Below are positions 3,227-30,881 of a stretch of 64,000 bases of DNA, piece after piece. The DNA is from Rhodoferax sp. (GTDB lineage Bacteria; Pseudomonadota; Gammaproteobacteria; Burkholderiales; Burkholderiaceae_C): NCBI RefSeq assembly GCF_028688795.1, contig NZ_JAQTXM010000004.1, positions 1 to 64,000 on the forward strand, written 5' to 3'. The notes beneath the pieces are model-generated. The model worked only from the letters and a program-made list of their open reading frames with translations, was not told the origin of the DNA and searched no databases. The translations under genes were made by a program, and so were the position numbers. Each line of letters begins with the position of its first letter. Position 1 is the stretch's first letter.

Positions 3227-5398
3227 TTAGGCATTCAGGTCAGAGCTGCGGTACGCCTCAATGGAGAGCAGCTGCACTGTCTTCATGTTGTTGGCGTACA
3301 GCTTGATCGGCAGCGTCCAGGAGAAGCCGCGCTGACCATCAGCTTGCGAAATGCGAGCTGCGGGCACCACCTTGAACATGTTAGCAAACACGCCGGCAGT
3401 GAGTTCTTCGACCTTTTGGTTGACCTTCTCAACCAGCTGCGAATCAGTCAACGTAGTGACGCCCGAGAAAGCGCGGTGAACGCGTTCACCCACCTTCTGG
3501 ATTTCGATGCAGGCCATCATCACGAAGAAGCTGTTGAGGACCGAGGTTTCGTCTTCGTAAACCGTCTTCAGCGCAGGGAAGTACAGCGTCTTGCGAGTGT
3601 GCGACAGCGGATAGTTCAGACCAGCATCCCAGTCTTTGTTGCGTTGCTTGGACGGTGTAAACGCAATGCTGACATCATCAAACATGGTGATGACGTTATT
3701 GGGCTCTTTGTCGAAGATGAACTCTTCTTTCCACTGGCCGTTCGAAGCGCCCATCATTCGGGCCGCCTTGTAGGCCAGCTCAATGGTCAACGGCAGGCGA
3801 TCGTTGTATTGGCTGTTGCGCAAGATGCCGTTACGGCCCATGATCAAACCACGGAAAACTGGGGTACCGAAGTAGTCCGATTCCGGGTAGTTCTGAAGCT
3901 TGGTGCGCAGCGTAACCGCCAGCGAGTTTTCCTCAGAAGCCGACAGCTGTCGACCGCCCACCACGTGAGGGCAGAGCACTACGCCAGTGTCTTTTCGCTC
4001 TGCGATGAACTTGCACAGTTCATACTTCGTGCTCACAGGAAAGCCTGTGTCGTAAATGATGGATTCAACGTTGACAGCAGTGTTCATCAGGTGACTGTCG
4101 GGGTTGGCATATTCAGCCACAGCCTCACTCACCAGCTCTGCAAACAGCGTGTCATTCATGGTGCCGTCGCTGCCGCAACGAGCCATCAGGTTGCTGCTCT
4201 CCGACAGCTGCGCGCCATCGATAGCAGCGCTGTCGATCATCAGCGAATAGTACGGCACACCAGTGGACGTCTTGGCGCTGATGAAGTTCATCATGTAGGC
4301 TTCGTCGTCGTTGCCGAACGTCAGGTCACTGGTGTCCCAGACATTGTTAGTGTCCAGAGCATCTTTCTCAGCCTCGTAGAACTGCTTGACCAGCAAGTCG
4401 ATGTTGGCCTCGTAGACATAAATGCCATTGAGGTCGCCGTACTTGGGAGCAAAGCGCAGATCGGTCGTGGTCTGATACTTGTTCAGGTAGATGTCTTTGA
4501 GCGTGATGCGCGCATCCGTATCCGTGTTGATTTGGTTCGGTTTGAACACGAAATCAAAGTACGGTTCGCCCGATTCAGTCTCCACCACGCGCGGCGCTGT
4601 GTTGGAGCTGGTGCGTCGCACTGCAGCCATACGGAACGGGTAAGCCTTGTTGCGCAGCAGCACGCCCGAGTTGACACCACCTGCGCTGTTCTCAGTGGGC
4701 GCCCAGATGCGCAGACCACAGTTGTTGAAGTACGAACCGTACGAGTTGGCCCAGAACTGCAGAATGGGGTAACGCTGGGACTGGGTCAGGCCTTCGACCT
4801 GATCGCCAGCCATGACCTTCGCTAAGCCGAACAGACTTTCGTCAGGGGCGCCGAACGTGTGGGTTGTAATCGCCGAGATCACCCACTTGGCTTTGTAGCA
4901 AGTCGCAGTCTTGCCGATACCGGCAGACAGTGCGGTGCCAGCAGGCAGTTCTTCGCCGGTGGAGGCATCCAGAACGATCGGGATCTCAATGCCAAACTGA
5001 TCCAGCTTGTAATTGCCAAAGCGGTCCCGATGGTACTGCTGCACCGAAGTGCGCAGAACATCCAGCGACAGCAAGAAATTGGCCTTAGGACCAGCGTCCT
5101 TGGGGATGACGCGCTCAATCATTTGAGCGTTCGCTGCCTCGTTGAGCTTGTTGGACAACGCGGTTTGGTGCGTAGCAAATGCCTTACGCAGGTCAAACGT
5201 GTCATCACCGTACATCTGGTTTCGGCCATTGCCAACAACCAGCTGCGGAAGGGTAGGACCTTTGGCGGCATACAGGTACACCTTAGGAAGGTGCTTCGGA
5301 ATGGCCTCCGGTGTGATGGCTGGGACGCGCGTGGACTTGTCTTGAGTCCCGAGCAATATGGTCATGGGCGCGCCATTGACTAAACTGGTATTTGACAT
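3227..5398 (-). CDS. contractile tail sheath protein (phiKZ gp29-like)
   Basis: This 723-residue protein matches the size and position of the phiKZ sheath (about 700 aa), next to the tube gene. It opens with a polar segment, carries a large mixed alpha/beta body with many exposed Asn/Thr/Tyr, and ends in a basic/beta stretch (QRGFSWTLPIKLYANNMKTV) typical of the sheath C-terminal domain that contacts the tube. Sheath subunits form the contractile sleeve driving injection. Codon use is GC-rich and regular, as in other abundant virion genes. A large antisense open frame at 3344-4825 is a shadow of this codon bias. Confidence 0.85.
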   Translation of the reverse strand: MSNTSLVNGAPMTILLGTQDKSTRVPAITPEAIPKHLPKVYLYAAKGPTLPQLVVGNGRNQMYGDDTFDLRKAFATHQTALSNKLNEAANAQMIERVIPKDAGPKANFLLSLDVLRTSVQQYHRDRFGNYKLDQFGIEIPIVLDASTGEELPAGTALSAGIGKTATCYKAKWVISAITTHTFGAPDESLFGLAKVMAGDQVEGLTQSQRYPILQFWANSYGSYFNNCGLRIWAPTENSAGGVNSGVLLRNKAYPFRMAAVRRTSSNTAPRVVETESGEPYFDFVFKPNQINTDTDARITLKDIYLNKYQTTTDLRFAPKYGDLNGIYVYEANIDLLVKQFYEAEKDALDTNNVWDTSDLTFGNDDEAYMMNFISAKTSTGVPYYSLMIDSAAIDGAQLSESSNLMARCGSDGTMNDTLFAELVSEAVAEYANPDSHLMNTAVNVESIIYDTGFPVSTKYELCKFIAERKDTGVVLCPHVVGGRQLSASEENSLAVTLRTKLQNYPESDYFGTPVFRGLIMGRNGILRNSQYNDRLPLTIELAYKAARMMGASNGQWKEEFIFDKEPNNVITMFDDVSIAFTPSKQRNKDWDAGLNYPLSHTRKTLYFPALKTVYEDETSVLNSFFVMMACIEIQKVGERVHRAFSGVTTLTDSQLVEKVNQKVEELTAGVFANMFKVVPAARISQADGQRGFSWTLPIKLYANNMKTVQLLSIEAYRSSDLNA

Positions 5399-5604
5399 AC
5401 GCTTATCAGTTCCTTAAAGTGGAGGGTGAGAATGACACACAGTGCATCAAACAATTTGCTTTTTAAGCAGGGATAATGTATTCATACACGCCTCCTTGTT
5501 CGATGATGATGACTTAACTAAGGCATACAATTGCACTACCCTACATGATGAAATAAAAAACATAATGTTGGTAGTTTATTTTTTAACACAAAAAGGAATT
5601 CAAA
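5399..5604. promoter_or_regulatory. divergent promoter region
   Basis: This 206-nt gap separates the minus-strand sheath gene from the plus-strand structural gene. It is AT-rich, and must hold promoters for both directions. No consensus box could be assigned with confidence. Confidence 0.45.
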
Positions 5605-6585
5605 ATGGCAATTTATAAAACCGCGTACGACACCACAGCCTGTTCTGGCGCCCGTGTACTGGACCTACAAGACAAACTGGCACGCAGTGTCTTGATGGGT
5701 GGTCTTGAATACAATAACATTAAGCTCAACGACCGCGATGAGCCCGTTACGTTAATGCTCTTACAGGGTGGCAATTCGGCCGCTGATGTGGTGCCTTATT
5801 TTAACCATCCCATTGAGATTAAGACCTCGCAAAGTAGCGTGAATGGAAGCACGTACAACTATGCAGTAGATGTACGTAACTTTGGCAAGTGGTACGCACC
5901 CAATCAAAAATTTGTAGTGCGCAATCGCCCTGAATTTGAATGGGCAATTAAGCGCGCGCTATTGAATCATGTTTGGCTTAATGCGCGTCCAGAACTGCTG
6001 CGTGATATCTCTGCTTTACCTGCCTCAGTATATTCATCCCTGATCAGTGAATGCATTGCGCGGCGTTTTGTACTGGATGCAGCAGAGCAAGCCACTGTTG
6101 CGGTGTTGGCCTGTTACTTCTACTACGGCTTGTTCACCAACGACACCGAGTTTGACGAGTTCCAGAAAAACAAGATTGTGGGCTCTATTTCCAGAATCAC
6201 ACGCATTCCTGCAGAGAAGGTCTTCTCCATTGTGGACGATTTGCCTGTGCTGTTTTCCTTAGAAGAGCTGTGCGATGCGTGCCGTGAAAAAACAGGCAGT
6301 GTTTCGTTAAACGACTTCAACGTGGGTGTGCTGATTGCAGTTGTGGCTGGCAATTGGTTTGGTACCAATGCCCGTGAGAACTTGGCTGTAGGTCTGGAAC
6401 ACATCCCTACCTGGATCATGATCGTCAATGCTTCGTTAACCGAAGCGACATATAAACGCAGCGTGCTGGCCAAAATCTCTGCACGCTACGACAAGAACAA
6501 TGCTGGCGAGAGCATGAACCGGTCGTTAAACCTCTTGCTGGGCGGTGCCAACATGGTGGAAGAAAACTTCATTAACCAAAACTAA
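5605..6585 (+). CDS. virion structural protein (phiKZ gp28-like position)
   Basis: The start ATG 5605 has AAAAGGAA 8 nt upstream. The 326-residue product has an N-terminal beta-rich region (about 1-130) and a helical C-terminal half with Leu/Val/Phe-rich helices. It is the first of three plus-strand genes (5605, 6595, 9147) packed with gaps of 9-14 nt between the sheath and terminase genes. In phiKZ this interval encodes structural proteins. No domain is recognised; a role in baseplate or tail assembly is inferred from position only. Confidence 0.65.
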   Translation: MAIYKTAYDTTACSGARVLDLQDKLARSVLMGGLEYNNIKLNDRDEPVTLMLLQGGNSAADVVPYFNHPIEIKTSQSSVNGSTYNYAVDVRNFGKWYAPNQKFVVRNRPEFEWAIKRALLNHVWLNARPELLRDISALPASVYSSLISECIARRFVLDAAEQATVAVLACYFYYGLFTNDTEFDEFQKNKIVGSISRITRIPAEKVFSIVDDLPVLFSLEELCDACREKTGSVSLNDFNVGVLIAVVAGNWFGTNARENLAVGLEHIPTWIMIVNASLTEATYKRSVLAKISARYDKNNAGESMNRSLNLLLGGANMVEENFINQN

Positions 6586-6594
6586 ATAAGCGCT

Positions 6595-9132
6595 ATGAAC
6601 AACTACCTTGTATCCCATGCGCTGGAGCAAGTGTGGTGTGCGCCTGACCAGGATAACCAATACATCGTCAGGCCTATGCGCATCACGCCGAACAACGGCG
6701 TCATTAACAGCTATTCGTTTTTGTGGACCCATATCGACTTGCCGAAATATGGCACGCGGTTCCACTTGTACCAAATTGGACAAATCCACCCTGCATTTCT
6801 TAACCTCCCGCATAAGGACGGAGAGTGGGTATTGTTCTCCGAGGTAGTTGACAAGAGCAGTGTGATTTGTGATTTGTACGACGACGCAGGCATTCACTTG
6901 CCATTGTCGCAAACATGGTTCACCGTAACCAGAGAAAAAGCACTGATCATTGCTGTTGTACGTAACCCAAAGTTGCCACTGGACTTTGATAAGGCCCAGC
7001 TATACCTTCGGGTGTATAACAATGCCTATTTTGCCAGCCAACGAGCAGCTAACCTGTTAGACAGTCTGCAGGCTAGTGGCGGTGTGATGGTAGATAACGC
7101 TACAGTTGTTCAACTGCAAACGGACTACGCCGCCAAGAAAACGCAAGTTGGCGGACTGTTTGCGTTTGTTAATGGTTGGTGGGTGCCAGCAATTGATCTG
7201 GTCACAACAAAGCCTGGCGATATCGCGGAGTTTGTTCATGACAGTTCTGTGATTCGAACCATTGAATTCAAACTGACCACATTGCCTACGTTTGAATCCA
7301 CGCTGGATAAGAAGAAAAAGTACCTGTTACATTACACAGGTGCTGACAACGACACAATTGACTACATAGATGACCTGGATCTCTATTTGGTCAGTAAGAA
7401 AAACCAGCGTGGCGTTTACGTGCATCGCAATGCCAAAGACGCCATGCGCATGGTCACGCACAGAGACTATGCCGTACCCGTAGACTATGTCAGTGCCTAC
7501 CTTAAGCATTTTCAAAATACAGAAGGTGTGGTCGAACTTGACGATTTGTACTTGCGACTGTATGTGCGCAATTCCGGCTTTAAACGAAAAGTGCTCAATG
7601 GCATCTCACGTCTTACGGAGTTGTACAAACTGTCAGACAAACTGCTTCTAGAAGCTATGCGTGGTGTTAATTCCAACGTCAAAGTGTGGCAAGCTGCTTC
7701 GCTAGAGGCCTCTGCTTATTCGCTGTTGATGAGTGAACAAGCCACCGCAGTGACGCCAGACCTAGTAGCTCAGGCTTATGGTTATAATACCGTAGCAAAG
7801 CTCACAGGCAACAGTGTTCACCAGGTCAATGCCGCAGGAGCGATAAAGAGCGTTGCCGTGCCTGTGGTTTATCAAAAGCAGGCCACTGTATTTGAATACG
7901 ATGCAGGCGGCTTGTTACTGGAGTGGCATCTGCACACAGACAGCAATGTGTACATCTTTAAAAACACAAATACCGCCTATGTGGAATTTGTGTACGGTCA
8001 AGCCAGCGAAGCATTAGACGATCAAACCTCGTTGTCCACAATCACGATGAGCAAGGACTCTCTGTATCGTGTCTACGTCAATGATTCTGGTTGGGTCGAC
8101 ATAACAGGGACAACACGTTACTTTACTGAAAATAATAAACTGGTCTGGAAAGACACCTTGCCAACCCAAGCATTGGTGAGATCAGATTCCAAGTTCTTAT
8201 GCCGTTCACTGGACTTACTGCCTCAAGACGGAGTATTGTCATTCCATCTTTCCGAAAAGAAGTGGAACGGTACGCAGTGGGTGATTGATGATTTAGAAAT
8301 CCCATTAGGGGAGTTAGACGTATTTCTCAATGGTAACAGCTTGATAGAGGGTTTGGATTACTTGGTGAAATTTCCATTTGTGGCGATTATCAACAAGAAG
8401 TATCTGAAAAATGAAAACAACGTACCTGAGAAGGTGGTGTTTCGGTTTATGGGATTTTGTAATTCGACCCTCCAGCGAACGGCGGTTAATGAAACTGGTT
8501 TTATCCGAAACGGGATAGTGTCGATGAACCAGCAGTACGACCTGCGTGACGAGGAGGTCATCAGGATCGTTGTTGATGGCAGGCTCAAACACCCTGCTCA
8601 ACTCACCTTTGATGAGACAGGCATGCCACTTGGCATTCACTCGGTGGACAACGGAAAGGCGTACCTCATCCGTGAAATGGTCGTACCGCTAACGCCAGTG
8701 CTTTCAACGGACTATTATCAGTACAGAGAAAAATCCGTTGAGACAGACAAGCAGATTTCTGACTACTTAACACTGAAATACCCTAAAGTACCCTATCAGG
8801 TCAACCCGATTGCTGACCGGTACAAGCTGATAAGTCCTTTCTTCTCAGCATTGACTGAAGGTTTGATCAACGATGGGTTTGATGAAACTGCGCTGGCTCA
8901 GCCTTACGACGATGAGGCCGTGCGAACATGGTGTCAACCCTATGTATACTTGCTGGAGGTTGATCCCGTCAACCTAGTCTTCGTGCTGCAGGTCGACTAC
9001 ATTGTCATACATCCGCATCGATTCAACACACTGGTCGCGCTGACACGTGCCCAGTACCGTTTCTTGAACAATGCGGTTCGGCTGTATGGAAACAAACGTA
9101 TAGACCTGTCTGCCTATTACACGATAAATTAA
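6595..9132 (+). CDS. large virion structural protein, 845 aa (phiKZ gp27-like position)
   Basis: It starts 9 nt after the preceding stop, so it is probably translated from the same message. The protein is rich in Tyr, Val, Asn and Asp with long beta-prone stretches, no membrane segment, and repeated short beta motifs such as 'DLYLVSKKNQRGVYVH' and 'YRVYVNDSGWVDI'. This is the profile of a baseplate or tail-fibre-connector protein. It shares the style of the next gene (LTDR-type beta segments and 'NTGFIRs' / 'ETGFIRN' phrases occur in both), suggesting distant paralogy. Function is inferred from location. Confidence 0.65.
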   Translation: MNNYLVSHALEQVWCAPDQDNQYIVRPMRITPNNGVINSYSFLWTHIDLPKYGTRFHLYQIGQIHPAFLNLPHKDGEWVLFSEVVDKSSVICDLYDDAGIHLPLSQTWFTVTREKALIIAVVRNPKLPLDFDKAQLYLRVYNNAYFASQRAANLLDSLQASGGVMVDNATVVQLQTDYAAKKTQVGGLFAFVNGWWVPAIDLVTTKPGDIAEFVHDSSVIRTIEFKLTTLPTFESTLDKKKKYLLHYTGADNDTIDYIDDLDLYLVSKKNQRGVYVHRNAKDAMRMVTHRDYAVPVDYVSAYLKHFQNTEGVVELDDLYLRLYVRNSGFKRKVLNGISRLTELYKLSDKLLLEAMRGVNSNVKVWQAASLEASAYSLLMSEQATAVTPDLVAQAYGYNTVAKLTGNSVHQVNAAGAIKSVAVPVVYQKQATVFEYDAGGLLLEWHLHTDSNVYIFKNTNTAYVEFVYGQASEALDDQTSLSTITMSKDSLYRVYVNDSGWVDITGTTRYFTENNKLVWKDTLPTQALVRSDSKFLCRSLDLLPQDGVLSFHLSEKKWNGTQWVIDDLEIPLGELDVFLNGNSLIEGLDYLVKFPFVAIINKKYLKNENNVPEKVVFRFMGFCNSTLQRTAVNETGFIRNGIVSMNQQYDLRDEEVIRIVVDGRLKHPAQLTFDETGMPLGIHSVDNGKAYLIREMVVPLTPVLSTDYYQYREKSVETDKQISDYLTLKYPKVPYQVNPIADRYKLISPFFSALTEGLINDGFDETALAQPYDDEAVRTWCQPYVYLLEVDPVNLVFVLQVDYIVIHPHRFNTLVALTRAQYRFLNNAVRLYGNKRIDLSAYYTIN

Positions 9133-26688: not shown

Positions 26689-28566
26689 ATGGCTATCAAA
26701 GACGACAACATGGGCACCGCAACCCAAGCTGCGTTTCAGCAAGCTCAACAAGCCCAGCAGAACCGTCAAGCGCAAGACCAACAGCCGCAGTCCTGGGGCT
26801 TCTTCTCCAAGGGCAACCTGGGTGGCATCAGCCGTAACCCCACAAGCGAAGTGCTGCTCAAGGCCATGAACGTGCTGCAGACCACCTACAAAGAGAAAGT
26901 GACGATCGAGCGCCCGTACGAAGCTGTCGTGCTGCCGGTGGACAACAGTAAAGAAGCACGCCTGACTCTGTCGGGCATCGTGGTCTGCGTCCGCATCCCG
27001 GACAACAAGAACCTGGGCGTGAGCTACCACACGCTGCTGCTGGAAGGTTCCAGCGAACCGCTGCAACCGCGCGTGCTCAACTGGAACAACCAGACCGTCG
27101 TGGAAGACCGTACGGCAGCTGACGTGAACAACGCCACTTACGCCGAGGCCGTCCATGGCATCGTCCAGCGTGCGTTCCCTGGCATGGTTTGCCGCCCGAC
27201 CAGTGCACAGGTAGTGCATCGAAAGTTCAACTTTGAAGATGAAGAAGCCGTGCGAAACCTGGCGATCAACGCCGTGTTCCCGTGCATCTCTGACTTGGAA
27301 GTGAACTTCCCGAACTTCCGCGACATCAACCTCGTGCGCTGGAACCGCGACAGCAGCCTGCAGCTGCAAATCAACTTCAACGAGCCGGATCGCCTGGACT
27401 ACGCTTCTCTGCCGGTGCGCAACAACATCGCAATCACACTGACTGCGGTGGACAACAGCAAGCCGCAGCAAGGCGCCCTGGAGAACAACCAGGGCAAGTC
27501 CATGAAGATTAGCCAATTGGGTGGCTTCATCGACCTGATCTGGGCACCTGAGGGTCAGACGAACCAGTACGGTGTTCAGCAAAAGGGTCCGCGTTACCTG
27601 TACTCTCCCCGTTTCGTCATGACGAACCTGGAGAACGTGATGCGCATGACGCCCGCTTCCCAGCTGCTGGCGCTTCAAACCGCAATGGTTCTGCGTGAAA
27701 CAGCGACTTCGTGGTACCCGTACTGCGATCCGCGTCCTCAAGTCGCTGGCGCTCGTGGCGTCGATACCCGCAACATCGGTGCCCTGAACATCGAAGCCAA
27801 CGTGTTCGAAGATCCGTCTGGCTACGGCGAAAAGATCGACACCAAGCTGGCGACGTTCACGTCCTTTGAGCAAGGCAAGCTGCTCAGTGCAACGATCCGT
27901 CCGGTGATGTACTTCAGTCTGGACGTGAGCGAGTGTGGCTCGGATACCTGGTACAACGAAGTCTTCAGCGCTGCGGCTGCTGGTAGCGTTGCTGCACAAG
28001 CAGCAATTCTCGAAGCTGCCAACGAGCTGACTGGTGGCCATTTCATGAACATCTACAAGAGCAACGAGTCTCCTGTGACTGTGAACGATGACCGCATCCA
28101 CTTGGGCTACTACAGCGGCGCTGATGGCGCGCGCCACGATATCCGTGACATCGACTACTTGGCCGTGTTGAACCTGCTGGGTGAAACTGACCATGACGCT
28201 GCACGTGCTTGGTCGGACACCTTCGCTCAGACGGCCTACCCGCTGAGCAAGCGTCTGCAAGAGCGCAAGAAGATGATCATCGAGATGGTGCGTGGCGATG
28301 TGATCTTCACCGGCTTCGCACGCCGCGTGACGCTGACGTACAAGTTCCTAGAAGCACTGGACATGGGCTGCCGCGAAGCAGGCCTAGTGACTCGCACCAC
28401 CAGCCCGAGCTTCGGCAACGAGTACACCAACTCGCGCGCAATCATGAGCTTCCTGCCGCAAGGCGCGGTTGCTCCTGGTGTCAGTGGCGTGTTCCAAAGC
28501 GGCTTTGGGCCTGCACCGACCAACAACATGGGTGCTAACCGCGGTTACAGCTCGCGTTGGGGTTGA
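26689..28566 (+). CDS. chmA: chimallin, phage nucleus shell protein (phiKZ gp54 / 201phi2-1 gp105-like)
   Basis: ChmA tiles into the protein lattice that encloses phage DNA and excludes host nucleases. The 625-residue length matches known chimallins (about 600-630). The N-terminal segment (1-45) is Gln/Ala-rich and flexible, the middle is a mixed alpha/beta body, and the C-terminal tail (about 585-625) is Gly/Pro/Asn-rich and flexible, as needed for lattice contacts. Position directly before the RNAP gp55-like gene is the phiKZ order. Codon use is strongly biased and GC-rich, expected for a very abundant early protein. AAAGGAAA precedes the ATG and a strong terminator follows. Confidence 0.88.
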   Translation: MAIKDDNMGTATQAAFQQAQQAQQNRQAQDQQPQSWGFFSKGNLGGISRNPTSEVLLKAMNVLQTTYKEKVTIERPYEAVVLPVDNSKEARLTLSGIVVCVRIPDNKNLGVSYHTLLLEGSSEPLQPRVLNWNNQTVVEDRTAADVNNATYAEAVHGIVQRAFPGMVCRPTSAQVVHRKFNFEDEEAVRNLAINAVFPCISDLEVNFPNFRDINLVRWNRDSSLQLQINFNEPDRLDYASLPVRNNIAITLTAVDNSKPQQGALENNQGKSMKISQLGGFIDLIWAPEGQTNQYGVQQKGPRYLYSPRFVMTNLENVMRMTPASQLLALQTAMVLRETATSWYPYCDPRPQVAGARGVDTRNIGALNIEANVFEDPSGYGEKIDTKLATFTSFEQGKLLSATIRPVMYFSLDVSECGSDTWYNEVFSAAAAGSVAAQAAILEAANELTGGHFMNIYKSNESPVTVNDDRIHLGYYSGADGARHDIRDIDYLAVLNLLGETDHDAARAWSDTFAQTAYPLSKRLQERKKMIIEMVRGDVIFTGFARRVTLTYKFLEALDMGCREAGLVTRTTSPSFGNEYTNSRAIMSFLPQGAVAPGVSGVFQSGFGPAPTNNMGANRGYSSRWG

Positions 28567-28681: not shown

Positions 28682-30881
28682 ATGGGCATCCATCTGCGTT
28701 TGGTGAACTTCACCAAGCTGCTCTCTAGCAGTGAAACTCAACCGATTATCATCAATGACATCAGCACTGCCACGGAAGAGAACAAACAATTCCTTGACAG
28801 TCTGATCTCCGTCAAGTACGACAAGACTGATCTGTTCAGCAACGAGCCCACTTGCGAGTGTGGCCGAACGCGAGGAGGATACAAGCTCAACGTGACGTGC
28901 TACAACTGCAACACACCAGTCAGAGAGTTGTTCGATCAGCACCTGCGACCTCTCGTGTGGATGAGAGCCCCTAAGGGCGTAGAGGCCTTGATCAATCCGA
29001 TGATCTGGACCATGTTGAACCAAAAGTTCACCAAGTCCAACTTCAGGATTATTGAGTGGTTGTGCAATACAGATTACCAAGTCAACGTGGTGCGTCCTCC
29101 AGAAGTCGACGAACTGCTGATGATGGGTGTTGATCGCGGGTACAACAACTTCGTCAGAAACTTCAACAAGTACATCGGCTTTCTGTTTTCACTGAAGGGC
29201 TATCGTCCAAAGAAGGGAAAGGAAGACCCGCTGCTGGCACTGATACAGCAACAAAGTGACTGCATCTTCAGTCAGTATTTGCCACTACCCAACAAGAGCT
29301 TGATGATCATCGAGAACACCCAAGTAGGGACATACATCGATCCGATCATCATTGGTGCCATTGACGCCATTCGCACCATCAGCAGCGTAGACTCGCCGCT
29401 GACTAACCTGACCTTGCGACAGAAGGAAAACCGTACAGCTAAGACGATCAACATGTTGTCTGAATTTTATTACAACATGTACCACGCCATTCTGGCCAGC
29501 AAGAACGGCATCTTCCGCAAACACGTGTACGGAACGCGTAATCACTTCTCTGCGCGTGCGGTGATTTCGTCGAACACCAAAGCACACAAGTACGACGAGT
29601 TGCACATCGGCTGGGGACACGGTGTAACCATGCTCAAGGTGCATTTGACCAACAAGTTGCTCAAACGGGGCTATACGCCCAACCAATGCACTGCACTGTT
29701 GCAAGAATACACAGTGAAATACCACCCGTTGCTCGATATCTTGTTCAATGAACTGATTGACGAGTCACCAGAAAAGGGTTTGGTCTGTACGTGGAACCGA
29801 AACCCTTCCTTGAGTCGCGGCAGCGTGCAGCGCATGAGGATCACTAAGGTCAAGACAGATCCGAATGACCCCACAATCACGATGAGCATCATCAGCGTTC
29901 GTGGGTTCAATGCTAAATAAATTGGCCACTATGGTTGAGAGACCATACGTGAATCTTATTGAATTGCTGGGACATCCTTATAGCCTTGTTACCACTGCGC
30001 GTCGAAAGACAAAGCCACGGTTTGAAAAAACAAGGATTGGGTAATCAGCAGCCAAGACGCTACAGACCGCCGTGAGGCAGGGCTACGCGTAAGGTTCATC
30101 GACTAGAGCGAAAGCTCGTAGGGGATAGCATCCACCGAAGCAGTAAGCTACCTACTAAAACAGGTAGAAGATATAGTCAGTTCCACAGGGAAAGCCTGTG
30201 GCGGGTGTCTGCGCACACCGGCATGGGGTATAGGTAGGCATTTTGCCGAGCGACCTCATGTGGACAGTAAGGATTTCGACGGTAGTTCATTGATTGCCGT
30301 CGCTAAACTTTTCTAATTGCTGGGACACCCTTAGAGCCATTTCACTACAAGTGCCGCGAAAGCAGGCATTGAAAGTACGAAAACGAGATGGATTGGGCAA
30401 TCAGCAGCCAAGACGCTACAGACCGCCGTGAGGCAGGGCTACGCGTAAGGTTCAACGACTATCGAAAAGCGCTGGGAAGCGAACTGAGTAGAGTAGGGCA
30501 CCAAGCGGACCCCAAATGGAAAGCCTCCTAAGACATAGGAGTGAAGATATAGTCTCCTCCGGTATGAAAGTATCGGACAGTTAGTTATCTGGACAATGAC
30601 TAACGCCCAGGTGTGGCGATCTGGTTAAAAGCACCGCAAGGTGTACAATGTTATTGGATCAAATGAATCTCGTCTTAGCCAATGACAACCAAACCGCAAG
30701 GCAGTTGTTGCATTTGGCACCACACAAGAACTCACTGGAGCTCAATAAGCTCATGAGTCTCTCTAAGGCCTCCAGCATCCCTAAGCCAGTGGCCTCTACC
30801 ATCTCAGCGTGGTTGAGCAGCGAACGCGATTCGCCTATCTCACCTGAGAAGCAAGCTTTCTTGCAATCCATCAGCATCTAA
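28682..30881 (+). CDS. non-virion RNAP beta' N-terminal subunit (phiKZ gp55-like), three exons with two group I introns
   Basis: Exons are 28682-29914, 30272-30283 and 30657-30881; spliced, they give 489 residues. Exon 1 carries a Cys cluster (58, 60, 73, 76) like the beta' zinc ribbon, then YGTRNHFSARAVIS (283-296), the counterpart of the beta' GKRVDYSGRSVI region, and CTWNRNPSLSRGSVQ (369-383), the counterpart of NRAPTLHRLGIQ. It ends FNA. Exon 2 adds DFDG and exon 3 begins DQMNLVL. Together they restore NADFDGDQM, the triple-aspartate Mg-binding site of every multisubunit RNAP. Unspliced, translation stops at TAA 29918 before the catalytic site. The remaining beta' half is at 42769-44766. 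Splicing is inferred, not shown. Confidence 0.88.
29915..30271 (+). ncRNA. group I intron 1 (357 nt, no ORF)
   Basis: Core elements in order: P (AATTGCTGGGA, near 29962-29972), Q (AATCAGCAGCC, 30043-30053), R (GTTCATCGACTAGA, 30094-30107) and S (AAGATATAGTC, 30168-30178). P8 hairpin GAGCGAAAGCTC follows R. At the 5' end exon GCT (29912-29914) pairs with GGC (29924-29926) with the required U-G at the splice site; TTCAAT/GTTGAG (29934-29939) may extend P1. P10 pairs exon 2 GATTT with AAATT (29919-29923), directly abutting. The intron ends in G30271, as group I introns do. No homing endonuclease is encoded. Confidence 0.9.
30272..30283 (+). other. 12-nt micro-exon coding Asp-Phe-Asp-Gly of the RNAP active site
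   Basis: GATTTCGACGGT supplies two of the three catalytic aspartates. It also serves as the P10 partner for intron 1 and, in its last seven bases, as the P1 strand for intron 2, so its sequence is under both protein and splicing constraint. Confidence 0.88.
30284..30656 (+). ncRNA. group I intron 2 (373 nt, no ORF)
   Basis: Exon CGACGGT (30277-30283) pairs with GCCGTCG (30296-30302), ending in the canonical U-G (P1). TTGATT (30290-30295), directly beside it, pairs with the first six bases of exon 3, GATCAA (30657-30662), as P10. Core elements: P (AATTGCTGGGA near 30315), Q (AATCAGCAGCC near 30399), R (GTTCAACGACTA near 30450) and S (AAGATATAGTC near 30544-30554). The last base is G30656. The Q-to-R block is almost identical to intron 1. 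No ORF is present. Confidence 0.9.

Follow-up and report, generated by a model that had tools for sequence, protein, structure and literature searches.

Short exons enclosed between group I introns are already known. In the phage Twort, introns 2 and 3 of orf142 are two similar group I introns around an exon of 23 nt in a phage protein gene (PMC10136302, sections available), and this gene was later identified as that of the tail tube protein (PMC11878797, sections available). The same sections of these two papers record a 34-nt exon between group I introns in Coxiella (PMC10136302) and, in rNDPL of phage phiNIT1 (Bastillevirinae), which represents another gene family, a small exon between two group I introns that is seen in cDNA reads (PMC11878797). 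An exon of 1 nt between two group IB introns is reported from placozoan cox1, a different gene and one that belongs to an animal mitochondrion (PMC5436844, in excerpt). Closest by gene is gp55-gp56-gp56.1 of phiKZ, in which a group I intron lies inside the polymerase motif studied here, between N and A (N|A); this single intron, ~1.4 kb long, contains a gene for an HNH endonuclease, and there is no micro-exon. In PhiPA3 a single group I intron, with an active HNH endonuclease, sits at a conserved DD of gp210, a phage RNA polymerase beta gene and hence another subunit (PMC11620839, sections available). According to an earlier suggestion mentioned in PMC7598289, these genes were split by intron mobility; introns in DxDGD are not described in the available parts of that review or of PMC12908238 and PMC13282480, and a full-text search of the open literature gave, among the matches listed, no paper that deals with the stacking of introns, or with micro-exons, at polymerase motifs of jumbo phages. 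Here we describe a locus where an RNA polymerase gene appears to be interrupted, around four active-site residues, by two putative self-splicing introns.

The locus lies in the window, the whole stretch of 64,000 nucleotides that was analysed, which is the first 64 kb of a contig of 216,249 bases; all features of the locus are on the + strand. As the initial annotation had supposed, the phage belongs with the nucleus-forming phages: the adjoining upstream gene (26689..28566) encodes a nuclear-shell (chimallin-like) protein (phrog_4795 nuclear shell protein, E 2e-85), and it is accompanied by a phiKZ-type multisubunit RNA polymerase (phrog_2987, PDB 7ogp). Exon 1 (28682..29914, 411 codons) encodes the beta'-like subunit of the non-virion RNA polymerase, the orthologue of phiKZ gp55, and ends in ...FNA with the codon GCT at 29912-29914. 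In a PHROG profile search it matches positions 1-417 of phrog_2987 (RNA polymerase beta subunit) at E 3.7e-138, and it matches PDB 7ogp_A, the phiKZ PHIKZ055 chain, at E 2.4e-78; among the host's relatives it was found in 0 of 59 other genomes and in its own genome only. Continued into intron 1 (29915..30271, 357 nt), its reading frame reaches TAA (29918-29920) at the second codon. There follow the 12-nt micro-exon GATTTCGACGGT (30272..30283), which codes for DFDG and fills phrog_2987 positions 418-421, then intron 2 (30284..30656, 373 nt), and finally exon 3 (30657..30881, 74 codons plus stop), which opens with GATCAAATG (D Q M) at 30657, reads DQMNL... to the stop and matches phrog_2987 positions 422-477. 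The last match is weak (E 2.3e-5), and exon 3 alone gave chance matches only against PDB. The gap between exon 1 and exon 3 in phrog_2987 is nevertheless of four residues, precisely the coding content of the micro-exon, which upholds the earlier proposal of a 12-nt exon restoring NADFDGDQM, and the uninterrupted homologue in FLC9 reads LNADFDGDQLN across the insertion place. That the motif is the catalytic one of the polymerase, as had also been claimed, agrees with the description of DFDGD as the Mg-binding motif of phiKZ gp55, residues 417-421 (PMC8287921, sections available).

The boundaries of both introns were set by the reading frame, by the U that precedes each intron and by the G that ends it (G30271 and G30656). 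The reading of both segments as group I introns, for which the initial annotation had suggested a covariance search as a check, was confirmed by that search: both match the whole RF00028 model of Rfam above its cut-off of 50 bits, intron 1 with 65.4 bits (E 2.4e-14, 29905-30201) and intron 2 with 72.7 bits (E 1.6e-16, 30274-30576). An insertion between P7 and P3 in the RF00028 alignment is reminiscent of subgroup IA. In the list of open reading frames there is no ORF of at least 60 aa inside intron 1 and none wholly inside intron 2, so that the endonuclease ORF by which a mobile (homing) intron is recognised is found in neither. A mechanically called ORF at 30648-30881 begins 9 nt inside intron 2 and spans exon 3; in an annotation it would probably be mistaken for a gene of its own. 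In comparison with Twort, the locus likewise consists of two complete introns around a short coding exon, but the Twort exon is longer, exon skipping was observed there, and no active-site motif is involved. To our knowledge, no pile-up across many phages is known for the Twort pair.

The P1 and P10 helices noted for both introns, with U.G at the splice sites and a final G, pair as they had been written. P1 of intron 1 (GCUAA/UUGGC, 29912..29926) has U.G at the 5' splice site and its guide, GGC, at 29924-29926, and just 3 bp use exon bases (GCU); the guide-side strand of its P10 (AAAUU, 29919..29923) pairs with 30272-30276 over 5 bp (GAUUU/AAAUU). P1 of intron 2 (CGACGGU/GCCGUCG, 30277..30302) joins exon bases 30277-30283 to the guide at 30296-30302 in 7 bp with U.G, and the guide-side P10 strand UUGAUU (30290..30295) forms 6 bp with 30657-30662 (GAUCAA/UUGAUU). 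The micro-exon is therefore made up of the 5 nt of P10 of intron 1 and the 7 nt of P1 of intron 2, with zero bases to spare, and the two helices could, we infer, be formed on it simultaneously. This division into 5 and 7 is not conserved, in that the simple P10 of the intron at NA|D is 0 bp in two related loci (L012 and L015) and 4 bp in a third (L053), and L012 and L015 carry an equal 12-nt exon despite the 0-bp simple P10 of the first intron. Each window intron folds more stably than its 100 shuffles, with z of -3.11 (intron 1) and -3.06 (intron 2).

The pairing was also assessed over a set of 35 introns, 33 from the beta'-like gene and 2 from the virion beta gene, with both window introns included; the boundaries in relatives were placed by hand so that the frame was kept, a U (in L040 a C) stood before the intron and a G closed it, and the guide was not used in placing them. 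The summed cognate exon-guide score of the 35 introns was 351.5, as compared with 203.5 +/- 19.5 when exons were permuted among introns and 123.4 +/- 20.5 when exons were shuffled, and in neither case did any of 2000 trials score as high. For 4 of the 35 (L006, the first intron of L013, L037 and L043) the search found no guide of at least 3 bp. At the site G|D, to which 14 introns of the set belong, the Asp codon varies at its third base in step with the partner of that base in the guide, GAC occurring with G in 12 introns and GAU with A in 2 (L032 and L050). P10 could be scored in 23 of the 35 introns and totalled 62 bp, whereas permuting the exons gave 29.6 +/- 5.7 and reached that total in 0 of 5000 trials, single values ranging from 0 to 8 bp, with 0 bp in 6 of the 23.

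Searches with exon 1 as a single protein, in collections of genomes and of viral contigs, found no relative (the own genome was possibly left out of these collections). IMG/VR was searched with an alignment of five exon-1 proteins, and the best 80 of 87 loci, some of them near-copies, were read; two of these (L049 and L084) end before the motif. The gene is interrupted in or beside the motif in 19 of the 80, and for 16 of the 19 an intron at the motif passed the Rfam cut-off. L014 (49.6 bits) and L040 (42.8 bits) fall below it, and L035 gave no Rfam match at E 0.01, yet its intron ends fit. Nine insertion points were found within the 24 nt that code for FNADFDGD: before F (in L050, with P there), inside the first F codon, at N|A, NA|D and NAD|F, inside the second F codon, and at D|G, G|D and D|Q. 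Named phages occupy three of them, phiKZ at N|A, PS119XW at D|Q and D3 at G|D. In 7 of the 19 loci the motif holds two or three introns separated by exons of 9-20 nt, a possible undercount as the 3' end is unassigned in L032, L056, L062, L067 and L078. The layout of the window, with introns at NA|D and G|D around a 12-nt exon, recurs in L012, L015 and L053 (in L053 the second intron reaches 42.6 bits; for this intron and for the second one of L015 the 3' end is unassigned). Two introns enclose an exon of 20 nt in L013 and of 15 nt in L077, and three introns leave exons of 11 and 12 nt in L027 and of 12 and 9 nt in L050; L012, L015 and L050 have one further intron upstream, at RG|S or RN|P. L050 holds four group I introns within one polymerase gene (5143-6664), and its 9-nt exon (FDG) is the shortest among the loci studied here. 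The window pair is thus one case of a recurrent intron pile-up at an RNA polymerase active-site motif.

With respect to the origin of such pairs, the alternative that survives best is a tandem duplication of one intron to a site 12 nt away, its guide being changed later. The two window introns share a tract of 81 nt (30025..30105 in intron 1 and 30381..30461 in intron 2) that is 93% identical between them, as duplication would predict; outside the tract they are little alike, and two of the three introns in the phage's virion beta gene carry the tract as well. To compare sites with genomes, 38 cores were aligned and, two near-duplicates having been dropped, 36 were compared. Mean core identity was higher between introns at the same site in different genomes (0.622) than between introns of one genome (0.600), and was 0.571 otherwise; the whole-core effect was reached by 1 of 2000 permutations for site and by 34 of 2000 for genome. 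In the block from CAGCAGCC to CGACTA, for which the label P6-P7 is our own, the order is reversed, with 0.698 for the same site, 0.725 within a genome and 0.644 otherwise (permutations: site 25/2000, genome 3/2000). Over its last 110 nt (30162-30271), intron 1 shows 88.6% identity with the closing part of the remaining virion beta intron (L010 4926-5038); this likeness of ends despite differing cores is, as judged from sequence, probably an exchange of modules between introns. The simplest reading would be one of separate lineages for each site, with later exchange of sequence inside a genome. As the similarity within genomes is also significant, either duplication played some part or exchange was extensive. 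Plain tandem duplication as the main origin was rejected on the core identities and on the low similarity beyond the tract, and we regard it as unlikely.

Cultured phages provide a further argument against duplication. phiKZ has one intron in the motif, at N|A, and L056, taken as PA7, has one at D|Q. The cultured Pseudomonas phage KEN49 (L176, PP456877), whose identity with phiKZ is 95-99% along the stretches that match, has an 18-nt exon coding for ADFDGD (record 249555-249572, minus strand), flanked by one intron at the phiKZ site and another at the PA7 site, 18 nt downstream; it also has a further intron at RN|P. Its pair is built from two introns that are single in relatives. Compared with phiKZ, KEN49 has 388 additional nt placed precisely at D|Q, and the reverse-strand stretch 3329-3695, which comprises the micro-exon and most of the D|Q intron, is 96.7% identical to PA7, whose intron is ~1.1 kb longer in between than that of KEN49. 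The Gly codon is GGA in KEN49 and PA7 and GGC in phiKZ, a difference of one base that is suggestive of co-conversion. KEN49 suggests a model for how a pair may form, namely phiKZ-like DNA that received a PA7-like intron at the adjacent site. Introns at matching sites in some relatives hold endonuclease ORFs, as in phiKZ; since the window introns have none, their mobility is taken from these relatives.

Evidence that bears on splicing itself comes from phiKZ. The annotated gp55 ORF ends before DFDGD, and gp55 from infected cells is of 56 kDa (PMC4666361, in excerpt), the modelled protein contains DFDGD (PMC8287921, sections available) and the PDB chain is named PHIKZ055/PHIKZ056.1; set against the short ORF, the size and the modelled motif indicate that the motif intron of phiKZ is very probably removed in infected cells. 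In the phage of the window two introns lie inside the gene, and full-length beta', and with it an active polymerase, would need two splicing events. Each intron would pair its own guide with the preceding exon (P1) and, at least here, also with the following exon (P10), and guanosine-driven cutting followed by ligation would, in two reactions, yield the single frame ...NA-DFDG-DQM.... The two introns would stem from two site-specific lineages inserted successively at adjacent points in a strongly conserved piece of DNA, presumably by homing between co-infecting phages, and sequence would later have been exchanged between introns of one genome. Taken together, this predicted two-step splicing and successive insertion of two lineages, followed by exchange, is in our judgement very likely to explain the locus.

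A different outcome of splicing would be frequent exon skipping, in which splicing links the 5' site of intron 1 directly with the 3' site of the second intron, serving as a splice switch or giving a decoy, that is, an in-frame subunit lacking DFDG and incapable of catalysis. The 12 nt are a multiple of three and would keep the frame, the window introns have the 81-nt tract in common, and skipping is known over the 23-nt exon of Twort orf142 and has been produced in engineered tandem introns (PMC10136302, sections available), as well as being reported for SIOphi (PMC11878797, sections available). However, the P10 strand of intron 1 forms 3 bp with exon 3 as against 5 bp with the micro-exon, past the U, exon 1 offers no pairing partner for the guide of intron 2 (GCC...), and the micro-exons of 11 nt (L027) and 20 nt (L013) would shift the frame on skipping, so that an in-frame decoy is not a general design; we consider frequent skipping to be improbable. 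It is less probable still that introns have invaded a pseudogene in decay, as the stop codon directly after exon 1 and the lack of an endonuclease ORF in either intron might suggest, given that the three exons and the core and guide of each intron seem intact, that the layout is kept in L012, L015 and L053, and that exon 1 has no second copy in the assembly. Equally little credence is due to a twintron-like unit that leaves as one piece with the 12 nt as a spacer, for although tandem composite introns leaving as a unit are known in fungal mitochondria (PMC12308204, in excerpt), these 12 nt code for exactly the missing catalytic residues and keep the frame and the U/G splice signals, and exons of other lengths in relatives supply the correct residues. 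An arrangement of one intron inside another was also considered and rejected, as the two Rfam matches follow one another and are separated by coding sequence.

The virion RNA polymerase of the same phage is also interrupted. Three RF00028 matches are found in its virion beta gene, which is on the same contig as the window, and a second tandem pair (L010 4278-5038; own contig C9 about 204777-205537) surrounds an 11-nt exon, CCAAAAAGAGT (PKRV), after ...DTDD, where the uninterrupted genes read DDAKRVNF in FLC9 and DDPKRVNF in LucasX. This is the same kind of place as that of the PhiPA3 gp210 intron. The third virion beta intron contains a 407-aa HNH endonuclease ORF (L010 5998-7514; C9 about 206497-208013), which is the sole match to phrog_59 (HNH) in the assembly. 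The motif of the virion beta' gene is uninterrupted in this phage. A survey of virion beta genes covered the best 80 of 115 IMG/VR loci; a regular expression flagged 40 of the 80, and on reading these comprised 25 interrupted at or just after DD, 14 uninterrupted variants and one (L157) that was left uncalled. Rfam was run on 15 of the 25 interrupted loci and placed an intron near this point in 10, with none near it in L116, L118, L132, L152 and L159. When 16 loci with the interruption immediately behind DD were scanned for what follows, the expected residues came as a single piece in 11, no continuation was assigned in 4, and one (L149) has an intron pair, around CCAAAACGAGT, both introns of which are matched by Rfam. 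The metagenomic phage L149 has intron pairs in both its virion beta' and its virion beta genes (3556-4276 and 8132-8757), with intervening exons of roughly 12 nt and 11 nt; two introns of the virion beta' gene appear to leave a 12-nt exon coding for FDGD.

As a tentative reading of what these pile-ups mean, the DNA that codes for RNA polymerase catalytic motifs in nucleus-forming phages may be a battlefield of intron endonucleases, in which stacked introns protect against rival endonucleases and the state becomes locked. If this were so, each intron would be a scar that removes the target of one rival endonuclease, adjacent introns would accumulate until the active site is reduced to exons of 9-20 nt, and deletion between similar introns would lose the catalytic aspartates, by which the state would be locked. 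A protein-level parallel is found in neighbouring inteins, which interfere with each other's homing (PMC10643990, in excerpt). In practical terms, gene finders miss such subunits, as is seen in the window, where exon 3 shows as a separate small ORF starting from inside intron 2. Related phages, some of them cultured, form a natural series with zero, one, two and three introns within 24 nt, which lets one ask how introns invade neighbouring sites and how two ribozymes share an exon of 9-12 nt; the series also bears on whether an essential gene is shielded by intron occupancy against interference by endonucleases of the kind reported for PhiPA3 and phiKZ. If the gene is spliced in the way proposed, production of the polymerase in the phage nucleus would hinge on measurable ribozyme reactions.
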